From: Gemmatimonadota bacterium
GTDB lineage: Bacteria; Gemmatimonadota; Gemmatimonadetes; Gemmatimonadales; GWC2-71-9
Direction of reading: 5' to 3'
DNA: 36,643 nucleotides
NCBI GenBank assembly: GCA_003221995.1
Contig: QHUR01000043.1
Coordinates: 1-36,643, forward strand
Under the pieces are notes generated by a model, which saw only the letters and a list, made by a program, of their open reading frames with translations, did no database searches and was not told where the DNA came from. The translations under genes and the position numbers were made by a program. Below are positions 5,109 to 9,531 of the stretch, piece after piece (within the stretch, counting starts at the first letter, position 1; each line of letters begins with the position of its first letter).

Positions 5109-7078
<1,970 letters not shown>

Positions 7079-7143
7079 GACGCGCAACCTCCAACAGGTA
7101 GGTCAGCTAACTCTTTGAGAAATAACACTGTTAGTACACAATC

Positions 7144-7182: not shown

Positions 7183-7211
7183 AATCTCGCCGCGGTCGGC
7201 CGACGTGTCAA
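7183..7211 (-). promoter_or_regulatory. candidate housekeeping promoter of groESL
   Basis: On the minus strand a perfect TTGACA (7206-7211) is followed after 17 bases by GAGATT (7183-7188), a weak -10 match. Transcription would start near 7176, just before CIRCE, the usual geometry for HrcA repression. The -35 box contains the stop codon of the upstream gene. Confidence 0.5.
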
Positions 7212-7660
7212 GGGGGGGAAATCGGCCGCCGCAGAGCCGCCTGGCTGCGTAGCGAATCGGCGAGCGCCTGGGCCCGGGAGTCCGGGGCGGGACCGAGCGA
7301 GTCCTCCGGTACCGAGACCGCCGCCACGATGACCCCGTTGCGCGTGTCGGCCAGCCGCAGGTGCAGCCAGTGGGTCTCGGGCGGGGTGTCGTCCCTCGAG
7401 GTGAAGATGATCACGGCCGCGGTGGGGGCGCTGCCTCCGCGGATCTTGCGCCGCACCGTGAACCCCCGGCGCCGCAGCGCCAACGCGAGCCGGTCGCTGA
7501 GCGAGTCCTTGTTCGTGATCAGGATGTCGTAGCCGCGCAGGGAGGCGGGCGGACGGCGCCCGGAGCCCGTGGTGCAGCACAGCCCAAGTAGGCCAGATGC
7601 TAAGAGGCTAAGATGCAAAGCGCGTGCAACGTAGCCTCTTCGCCTCTGGCTACTGGTCAT
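7208..7660 (-). CDS. small exported protein, possible lipoprotein, unknown function
   Basis: The 150-aa product has a signal peptide: charged n-region (SQRRRGYVAR, residues 4-13) and hydrophobic h-region (HLSLLASGLLGL) ending in C28-C29. The cysteines suggest a lipoprotein, but the residue before C28 is Leu, so the lipobox is imperfect. The mature part (about 40-140) looks alpha/beta, with GYDILITNKDSLSDRLALAL, AAVIIFTSRDD and GVIVAAVSV. I do not recognise the family. ATG 7660 overlaps the stop of the NlpC/P60 gene as ATGA. Its signal-peptide codons are made of inverted octamer repeats (7591-7651), and its stop codon lies inside the groESL -35 box. Confidence 0.7.
   Translation of the reverse strand: MTSSQRRRGYVARALHLSLLASGLLGLCCTTGSGRRPPASLRGYDILITNKDSLSDRLALALRRRGFTVRRKIRGGSAPTAAVIIFTSRDDTPPETHWLHLRLADTRNGVIVAAVSVPEDSLGPAPDSRAQALADSLRSQAALRRPISPP
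7591..7651. repeat. inverted pair of octamer arrays encoding a signal peptide
   Basis: Octamers of the type GCTAAGAK run from 7591 to about 7618. The same family in opposite orientation (TAGCCTCT, TCGCCTCT) runs from 7632 to 7651. The arms 7591-7610 and 7632-7651 pair over 20 bases with three mismatches and a 21-base loop; 7602-7610 and 7632-7640 match perfectly. In the mRNA the hairpin base is seven nucleotides after the start codon of the exported-protein gene. Confidence 0.85.
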
Positions 7661-8631
7661 GGAATTATCCGCCTCGCCCCCACCCACCGATTGATCCAGT
7701 AGGCGCCATCGGGATCGTGGACCTCGAGGAGCGAGAGCTTCACCCCATTGCTCGAGCTATGGATGAACTTGAGCTCGCCGACGTACATGCCCACGTGGGT
7801 CACCCCGGATCCCGGCGCGGCCGAGAAGAGCAAGATGTCGCCGGGCCGCAGCGCCTCGATGACGGGGGCCACCTCGGCGCCGGCCGAGGCCTGGGCGCGG
7901 CCCATCCGCGGCAGCCGGATGCTATGCTGGCCGTAAGCGTACTGGATGAGCCCCGAGCAGTCGAACCCGTTTCCCGCCGTGCCGCCCCAAACGTACGGCG
8001 TGCCCAGGGCGTCGAGCGCGGTGCGCACGACGTCCGCCGCGTTCCCCGTGATCGTGGCCGGCGGCTCGGGAGGCAGCCGCGGCGGTGAGCCGTAGCCACC
8101 GCTCCCCCGTCCCCCTTCCCCCCTCCCCAGCCTTAGCGTGATCCCGACCGCGCCGCTGAATCCCGTGCGGGCGTCGGAGGTGCGCCAGAAGCCGCGGGGC
8201 CCCCGGTCTTCGACCCGGTAGCGTGCCTCGACGCCGAGCGCGAAGCGCGTAACCGGCCGCCACTCGAGGCCGCCGCCCATGCTCCACTGAGCGGCGAGCT
8301 CCTGCGTGGTCGTATCCGTGGAAAGGCCCAGCGCGACGCCGGTGAGTGCGTACGGCCCGAGCGCGCGGCGGCCGCGGAACGCCTGCAGCTCGTAGGCCAG
8401 CCCGTAGAAGGCGCGCCGGCGGCCCAGCGAGTCGTGAAGGACTACCTGCGCCCCGAAGCCGTGCGTGAACGGCCCGCCCCAGTGCGCGCTGGTGCGGAAT
8501 TCGTAGCTGTCCGAGCGGTTACCGTTGTACCAGCGGCCGCGGTGGAACTCCCAGTCGCGACCCTGGGCGGCGAGCACTGCGGGAATGCAGAGCGTGAGCG
8601 GGAGCCACCCGAGCTCAGTCGGCTGCCGCAA
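7657..8631 (-). CDS. exported protein with barrel-like N-terminal domain fused to an NlpC/P60 endopeptidase
   Basis: This 324-aa protein starts with a signal peptide (about 1-23, ending VLAAQG). Residues 25-170 are alternating strands with aromatic and Gly residues (SYEFRTSAHW, LGPYALTGVALGL, FALGVEARYRV), resembling a small outer-membrane beta-barrel. A Gly/Pro linker (171-195) leads to an NlpC/P60 domain with catalytic C225 in NGFDCSGL, H279 in THVGMY and likely third residue H291 in FIHSSS. The enzyme should cut peptidoglycan stem peptides. The start is TTG 8631: no better start precedes the signal peptide, and AGGAG lies ten bases upstream. It overlaps the upstream gene by 17 bases and the downstream gene by ATGA. 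Confidence 0.85.
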   Translation of the reverse strand: MRQPTELGWLPLTLCIPAVLAAQGRDWEFHRGRWYNGNRSDSYEFRTSAHWGGPFTHGFGAQVVLHDSLGRRRAFYGLAYELQAFRGRRALGPYALTGVALGLSTDTTTQELAAQWSMGGGLEWRPVTRFALGVEARYRVEDRGPRGFWRTSDARTGFSGAVGITLRLGRGEGGRGSGGYGSPPRLPPEPPATITGNAADVVRTALDALGTPYVWGGTAGNGFDCSGLIQYAYGQHSIRLPRMGRAQASAGAEVAPVIEALRPGDILLFSAAPGSGVTHVGMYVGELKFIHSSSNGVKLSLLEVHDPDGAYWINRWVGARRIIP

Positions 8632-8899
8632 CCGCCGTGTACTCCTGCGACGGCCGGGGCGCCATGTGATGCGACAGGAGGTGCGGAAGCCGGCGCATGA
8701 AGCGCACCCAGGTCCAGAGGGCCGCGAACCCGAGCAGCGCCGCGCCCAGCCCCGCCACGACGAGCATCGTGAGGGGACGAGAGAATCGGGTGGCGACGAG
8801 CGCCCCGAGCCAGAGACCCGCGTACGACGCCCCCCAGGTGAGCACCGGGGTGACGAGCCAGCCGAGCACGACGAACAGGTGAGCCAGCCAGCGCGGCAC
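8615..8899 (-). CDS. small membrane protein of unknown function
   Basis: The 94-aa product has two or three hydrophobic segments (LAHLFVVLGWLVTPVL at 5-20, then GLWLGALVA and LTMLVVAGLGAALLGFAAL at about 48-66) and a polar, His-containing tail (RRLPHLLSHHMAPRP). I do not recognise it. The start chosen is GTG 8899, which follows GGGGAGGG at short spacing and lies 14 bases after the preceding stop. Its end overlaps the TTG start of the barrel-NlpC gene by 17 bases, so translation is probably coupled. Confidence 0.6.
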   Translation of the reverse strand: MPRWLAHLFVVLGWLVTPVLTWGASYAGLWLGALVATRFSRPLTMLVVAGLGAALLGFAALWTWVRFMRRLPHLLSHHMAPRPSQEYTAVAAAD

Positions 8900-8913
8900 C
8901 GTCCCTCCCCGCT

Positions 8914-9531
8914 CTAGGACTTCCGGGCGAGGGCGACGACGGCGAGCACCGCCAGGGCGATCGTGAACCCCGCCCCCGTCTGGACCGGCAGCGCCAGTTG
9001 CAGGCCTGCCAGCCGCGCGACGATGACGAGCAGGACCGCGCCCACGACTGCCGGGCCCGCGGTGCGCGTGAGCGTCGCCTCGCCGCGCGCCGCTTGCGTG
9101 GCCGTGACGATGCCGCCCATCCAGGCGAGGAAGGTGCCCAGCATCCACCAGATCGGCAGATACCACCAGCTACTCCCGCCGCCGATCGCGTCCCAGGTCC
9201 AGGGATAGGCGCGGAACGGCCGCAGCAGGACGATGTCGAACGCCATGAACACGATCGTCCCCCAGAGGCCGATCGCGGCCGCGCCGGCGATCCCCTCGGC
9301 ATGGCGGGCCGCGGCCCACCGGCCGGGCAGGAAGCTCGCGAGCACGCCCGCCGCGAGCACGATGAGCGTCTCCATCCCGCGCCGCGCGCCGCCCGTGCCG
9401 GGAACGAAGCGCGCGACCACGAGAAAGAGCACGACCGCCGCCGCCGTGAGGGCGCCCATCTTAGTGCCACTCACCATGACCGTGCGGAAATCCGAGCGAT
9501 CCGTTGTCGTGGGGGCGACGCTAGCCGACAC
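8914..9531 (-). CDS. polytopic membrane protein of unknown function
   Basis: The 205-aa protein is mostly hydrophobic, with about six candidate membrane segments, among them MGALTAAAVVLFLVVARFV, METLIVLAAGVLASFL, GTIVFMAFDIVLL, WMLGTFLAWMGGIVTA and FTIALAVLAVVALA. There is a polar N-terminus and an aromatic loop (YPWTWDAIGGGSSWWYLP). I do not recognise a family or catalytic motif. GTG 9531 is supported by AGGAG nine bases upstream. It lies 62 bases after the prenyltransferase gene and 14 before the next membrane protein, so it probably belongs to the same transcript. Confidence 0.65.
   Translation of the reverse strand: MSASVAPTTTDRSDFRTVMVSGTKMGALTAAAVVLFLVVARFVPGTGGARRGMETLIVLAAGVLASFLPGRWAAARHAEGIAGAAAIGLWGTIVFMAFDIVLLRPFRAYPWTWDAIGGGSSWWYLPIWWMLGTFLAWMGGIVTATQAARGEATLTRTAGPAVVGAVLLVIVARLAGLQLALPVQTGAGFTIALAVLAVVALARKS

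Follow-up and report, generated by a model that had tools for sequence, protein, structure and literature searches.

How outer-membrane growth and wall growth are coordinated in two-membrane bacteria is an open question. A gene in the window analysed here (the whole stretch of DNA, 36,643 nucleotides) may bear on it: does it encode a wall-cutting enzyme held in the outer membrane by a barrel of its own? The usual partners of an NlpC/P60 domain are SH3 or LysM domains, as the preliminary description of the locus had it, and the available part of a review agrees: the domains tabled there with NlpC/P60 are PGB, LysM, SH3, SLH, SPOR, SLAP, CWB and ChW, and an outer-membrane barrel is absent (PMC6403190). 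We found no description of a barrel joined to NlpC/P60 in a literature search of partial coverage, and the fusion is not described in the accessible portions of PMC8051824, PMC6403190, PMC12419801 and PMC11211486. As far as these searches go, both halves are of known kinds and their stable fusion across one class is undescribed.

The gene and its surroundings

The ORF of 324 aa runs on the minus strand from a TTG at 8631 to a stop at 7657–7659, the coordinates first reported for it (Table 1). Downstream of the in-frame stop at 8916 and ahead of the GTG at 8577 (residue 19), it is the sole ATG, GTG or TTG, and the gene start overlaps the upstream ORF 8615–9166 by 17 bases. A signal-like N-terminus was judged by eye in the window protein and its aligned homologues. 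Coordinates, the PF00877 match and conservation among homologues agree that an ORF with a barrel-like domain before NlpC/P60 is real; a chance ORF is ruled out, since both domains are conserved among homologues.

Table 1. Positions of the barrel-NlpC gene and its parts in the window
Feature	Positions	Strand	Basis or remark
Whole gene	7657..8631	(-)	signal-like start, eight-stranded barrel, linker, NlpC/P60; 324 aa, TTG start
CAGGAG, possible ribosome-binding site	8642..8647	(-)	sequence reading; ~10 nt upstream of TTG
Residues 1–23, signal-peptide-like N-terminus ending VLAAQ	8563..8631	(-)	by eye; low-confidence model helix 10–21
Residues 24–169, eight-stranded outer-membrane-type barrel	8125..8562	(-)	model strands, fold matches, two-faced strands
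Residues 170–195, Pro/Gly-rich linker	8047..8124	(-)	pLDDT <50 over 170–193
Residues 196–324, NlpC/P60 catalytic domain	7660..8046	(-)	PF00877 at 210–321 and model
Codon of C225, putative nucleophile (DCSG)	7957..7959	(-)	invariant in 36 sequences
Codon of H279, putative catalytic histidine (THVG)	7795..7797	(-)	invariant in 36 sequences
Codon of H291, putative third catalytic residue (IHSS)	7759..7761	(-)	invariant in 36 sequences

The gene order is birA-like, coaX-like, ubiA-like, two membrane-protein-like ORFs, the barrel-NlpC gene, a small ORF, groES and groEL; these names come from reading the ORFs, except groES and groEL, which are supported by matches. Downstream groES is found in 17/17 loci from named genomes, all of them Gemmatimonadetes or Gemmatimonadales MAGs, and the intervening small ORF in 14 of these. 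In the window the small ORF (7208–7687, minus strand) has a cysteine-rich signal-like start and no Pfam match (residues from 7663 on); its identity in the 14 loci is 40–84%. The two overlapping hydrophobic ORFs just upstream of the barrel-NlpC gene (8615–9531, minus strand) are conserved with it in near relatives and have no Pfam match at E <= 1, bar one far below the cut-off. Just downstream, groES-groEL occupies 5109–7087 (minus strand), and the groEL DNA is 82.5% identical to the Gemmatirosa kalamazoonensis plasmid-record copy. A tblastn search of the plasmid collection with the window barrel found nothing at E 1e-3. None of the window neighbours was seen around 18 loci (L079–L096), nearly all of other families.

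The source genome has eight Omp85 rows, five of them over the cut-off, and three PF00691 domains, a family found in 41/41 genomes searched; both are as expected of a diderm. PF00877 occurs in this assembly (87.6% complete) in the window protein and in one other, which has no signal by eye.

The NlpC/P60 domain and its pairing with the barrel

PF00877 matches residues 210–321 (E 1.2e-27, 96.3 bits versus a gathering cut-off of 23) and is the sole Pfam match of the protein, the remainder having none at E <= 1. At E <= 1 the PDB sequence matches, 3h41, LytE and MepS among them, are confined to the C-terminal half. In NCBIfam, NlpC families match below their cut-offs, and residues 79–139 give a faint match to T9SS PorG (E 0.056). 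We aligned 36 sequences, window included, at 94% to 34% identity to the window protein (alignment A2); PF00877 is present in all of them, and their N-terminal domains align. The alignment omits 13 of 48 loci: L001, which is the window; the copies or near copies L032, L035, L036, L046, L014 and L027; L042, L044 and L045, which are cut or frameshifted; and L002, L030 and L031. By analogy with the NlpC/P60 family we take C225, H279 and H291 to be nucleophile, catalytic histidine and third, polar residue, respectively.

The protein matches 53/61 genomes near the source at E <= 0.001, many via the NlpC domain alone. Within Gemmatimonadota genomes, barrel profiles were used as well: at E <= 0.001 profile A3 matched 62/295 genomes of the class and the broader profile A4 matched 144/395 genomes of the phylum, some of the weak matches being stand-alone barrel-like ORFs. 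NlpC/P60 shares the ORF with the barrel in 104 of the 112 distinct Gemmatimonadota sequences whose barrel match is under 1e-9; the search for the same domain pair, proposed with the preliminary description, thus finds it recurring as a conserved architecture. Fused members belong to six families of one class (f1, f2, f5, f7, f8 and f10), and the gap between their barrel and NlpC/P60 matches is 13–76 residues (median 41). Counted among the 104 are L105, which is a frameshifted copy, and some sequences cut by contig ends. The tally omits L032–L048 and barrel matches weaker than 1e-9; among the weaker ones, NlpC is present in the ORF of L172 and L173 and absent from that of L174 and L176–L179. 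Of the other 8/112, G100 contains a run of N, G032, G396 and G393 are truncated at contig ends, and G365, G399:C235, G388:C104 and G003 have no NlpC in the barrel ORF. In G388:C104 (L170:1348-2655, plus strand) barrel and NlpC/P60 lie in two neighbouring ORFs, and the NlpC/P60 one has a signal-like start of its own, an arrangement that may be either a split of the fusion or a state preceding it.

The cysteine motif is kept in 96/104 fused relatives. In the other eight, seven from f2 and one from f1, the catalytic cysteine is absent and FDAAG, FDAPG, FDGAG or FDSPG replaces FDCSG. The loci concerned are L087, L156, L157, L159, L162, L165, L166 and L168. Judged by sequence, these relatives are probably pseudoenzymes on the same barrel scaffold. 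That the architecture outlives the cysteine would suit a protein whose NlpC/P60 domain mainly binds peptidoglycan and so links outer membrane to wall in the manner of OmpA, with little or no catalysis, and RipD offers a precedent, as a non-catalytic NlpC/P60 protein adapted, per PDB entry titles, to peptidoglycan binding. For the window protein we consider such a tether improbable: it retains all three putative catalytic residues, most fused relatives have the cysteine motif, and OmpA-type tethers (PF00691) are already present in the source genome. RipD resembles the window protein in its NlpC/P60 fold (4jxb, Z 14.6, rmsd 2.2 over 111) and resembles the eight cysteine-less relatives in being non-catalytic, whereas the window protein keeps the cysteine; we know of no barrel in RipD.

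A predicted eight-stranded barrel of outer-membrane type

AlphaFold2 gives the window protein exactly eight N-terminal strands (26–35, 39–52, 55–68, 71–84, 91–106, 109–127, 130–143 and 155–167). The model was computed from a shallow alignment of 16 sequences (mean pLDDT 75.3, pTM 0.45), with ten-residue pLDDT means of 60–92 across residues 21–170. A second model, led by the divergent relative L048 (34 to 42% identity to the window protein, depending on the alignment) and likewise from a shallow alignment (13 sequences; mean 73.5, pTM 0.45), again has eight strands. Because pTM is 0.45 in both models, the relative placing of the two domains is undefined. Structure prediction of residues 25–170 had been set beforehand as the check on the barrel, and it returned one; the opposite outcome, a soluble domain that is not a barrel, did not occur and is ruled out by the eight-stranded barrel in both models.

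In a Foldseek search against the PDB, rows 1–16 of the best 50 listed are NlpC/P60-type structures and rows 17–50 (34) are all outer-membrane proteins; no lipocalin or other soluble barrel is among the listed fold matches. By VIA-align, the window model matches the OprF N-domain (Z 17.7, rmsd 1.7 over 125), NspA (Z 17.5, rmsd 2.9 over 141), PagL (Z 16.5, rmsd 2.3 over 127) and OmpA (1qjp; Z 16.0, rmsd 1.9 over 120), and the L048 model matches NspA (17.6, 2.4 over 137), OprF (16.2, 2.7 over 127) and OmpA (15.2, 2.6 over 121). With eight antiparallel strands in two AlphaFold2 models and listed PDB barrel neighbours that are outer-membrane proteins, the barrel-like domain of about 145 residues claimed to precede the catalytic domain stands.

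Sequence signals point the same way with less force. At E <= 1 a profile of 31 barrels matched four PDB sequences, a SurA-OmpX chain and three of OmpX itself; these matches, at E 0.0047 to 0.083, are weak but consistent. PF13505 (OMP_b-brl) matches 6/36 homologues at E <= 0.5 (best 2.5e-4) and leaves the window protein unmatched at E <= 1. Apolar alternation over residues 25–168 was equalled by 20/5000 column shuffles on one measure and by 8/5000 on the other; for the NlpC domain, taken as control, the counts were 3601/5000 and 3547/5000. All eight strands are two-faced, with an apolar fraction of 0.59–0.79 on one face and 0.10–0.35 on the other, and in strands 6–7 one face bears the conserved E123, E135, R137 and R139 together with glycines. 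Outer-membrane barrels typically carry a C-terminal pattern in their last strand, the beta-signal. The full beta-signal-like pattern occurs in the last 20 residues of 19/31 barrels versus 10.6% of shuffles, and a looser form, the only one met by the window protein, in 24/31 versus 23.6%; these counts give weak support, because several matches stop short of the barrel's C-terminus and the barrels are related to one another.

The two-faced pattern fits a membrane barrel, and by itself would fit a soluble one equally. We take a membrane-type direction of the faces from the fold matches, since alternation alone does not decide it. A periplasmic beta-barrel with an apolar core, for instance a ligand- or wall-binding domain that provides no membrane anchor, would be expected to alternate in the same manner and would also accord with the thin sequence evidence for an outer-membrane family (PF13505 and OmpX, above). 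We nevertheless hold it very improbable, given that the 34 barrel rows among the Foldseek best 50 are outer-membrane proteins and that conserved glutamates, arginines and glycines on one face would be uncommon in an apolar core. We reject export of the intimin/invasin type on the eight strands of both models, intimin-type barrels having twelve. That the barrel carries NlpC/P60 outward, with other cells or outside material as its target, can hardly be the case: the order, barrel first and passenger last, is that of intimin and invasin, which according to the available part of PMC3467248 export their C-terminal parts via the barrel, but a barrel of eight strands, one face of which bears conserved charged residues, would leave no obvious channel, and the cell's own substrate is periplasmic.

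A probable anchored endopeptidase and other arrangements within the class

We think it quite likely that this is a peptidoglycan endopeptidase integral to the outer membrane and active in the periplasm, on a MepS-like plan in which an OmpA-type barrel replaces the lipid; the preliminary description had likewise suggested that the barrel may anchor the hydrolase. OmpA has both barrel ends in the periplasm, followed by a linker and a periplasmic C-terminal domain that meets peptidoglycan. OmpA and OprF thus share with the window protein an N-terminal eight-stranded outer-membrane barrel, a linker and a wall-meeting C-terminal domain, but theirs is PF00691 and here it is NlpC/P60; OmpA proper is ruled out, PF00877 being the sole Pfam domain at E <= 1, with no PF00691. 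OmpX, NspA and Ail are likewise eight-stranded barrels, and OmpX entries are the sole PDB sequences found by the barrel profile; those proteins stop at the barrel, whereas the window protein continues into a linker and an enzyme. PagL is an outer-membrane hydrolase with an eight-stranded fold match, but its active site sits on the barrel itself, and here there is a separate C-terminal active-site domain.

MepS (Spr) of E. coli consists of a lipidation site, 37 disordered residues and then NlpC/P60, according to the accessible text of PMC11211486. The likeness extends over anchor, disordered linker (37 residues in MepS, the above median in the fused relatives) and NlpC/P60, with a fold match to 7v6t (Z 15.5, rmsd 2.9 over 116). 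The difference lies at the N-terminus, a lipidation site in MepS and a predicted barrel here, and in the NCBIfam model NF008096, on which the window protein scores 66.4 bits versus a cut-off of 186. By eye, the signal of the window protein does not end in a lipobox cysteine shared with its homologues; C15, in a TLC context, is unconserved in the alignment. The absent lipobox and the NF008096 score below cut-off rule out a lipid-anchored MepS orthologue.

The two domains, the eight-strand fold, the invariant Cys/His/His residues and the recurrence of the pair are computed results; export, membrane insertion and orientation of the protein, the bond that it cuts and its role in the wall we infer as follows. 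The signal peptide would export the protein, and the Omp85/BAM machinery would insert the eight-stranded barrel into the outer membrane. With both barrel ends facing the periplasm, as in OmpA, the flexible linker would carry the NlpC/P60 domain on the periplasmic side of that membrane. The barrel would then keep the enzyme where the sacculus faces the outer membrane, and the wall would be cleaved there during growth; endopeptidases cut cross-links, letting new strands be added (PMC11211486, in the portion available). A more speculative extension, which we regard as rather unlikely, is that one class of bacteria has turned wall cleavage into a function of an outer-membrane-integral protein. The hydrolase would then be in place only after barrel insertion, so that outer-membrane growth directly licenses wall growth, and in some lineages loss of the cysteine would have turned the protein into a tether, the architecture switching in evolution between cutting and holding. 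If the anchored endopeptidase is real, a single polypeptide of barrel and wall endopeptidase would connect outer membrane and wall physically and directly, with the cysteine-less relatives and the two-gene version as natural comparisons.

The barrel is not the only arrangement in the class. At 20 further hand-fetched NlpC places (16 in f2, 4 in f1) there was no barrel match. A loose lipobox pattern occurs in 6/21 barrel-less NlpC ORFs (L030, L182, L184, L188, L193 and L194), and by eye only L030 of these six has a lipobox at the end of a short signal. Around this enzyme the class thus shows several arrangements: a barrel, possibly a lipid, or no anchor at all. The barrel-less NlpC/P60 ORF of L030 (1360–1983, plus strand) has a lipobox-like VTSC, and its tail PPDKAPPP resembles the tail PPDSAPPP of the fused L031. 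On this sequence likeness, L030 possibly represents a change of anchor relative to L031.
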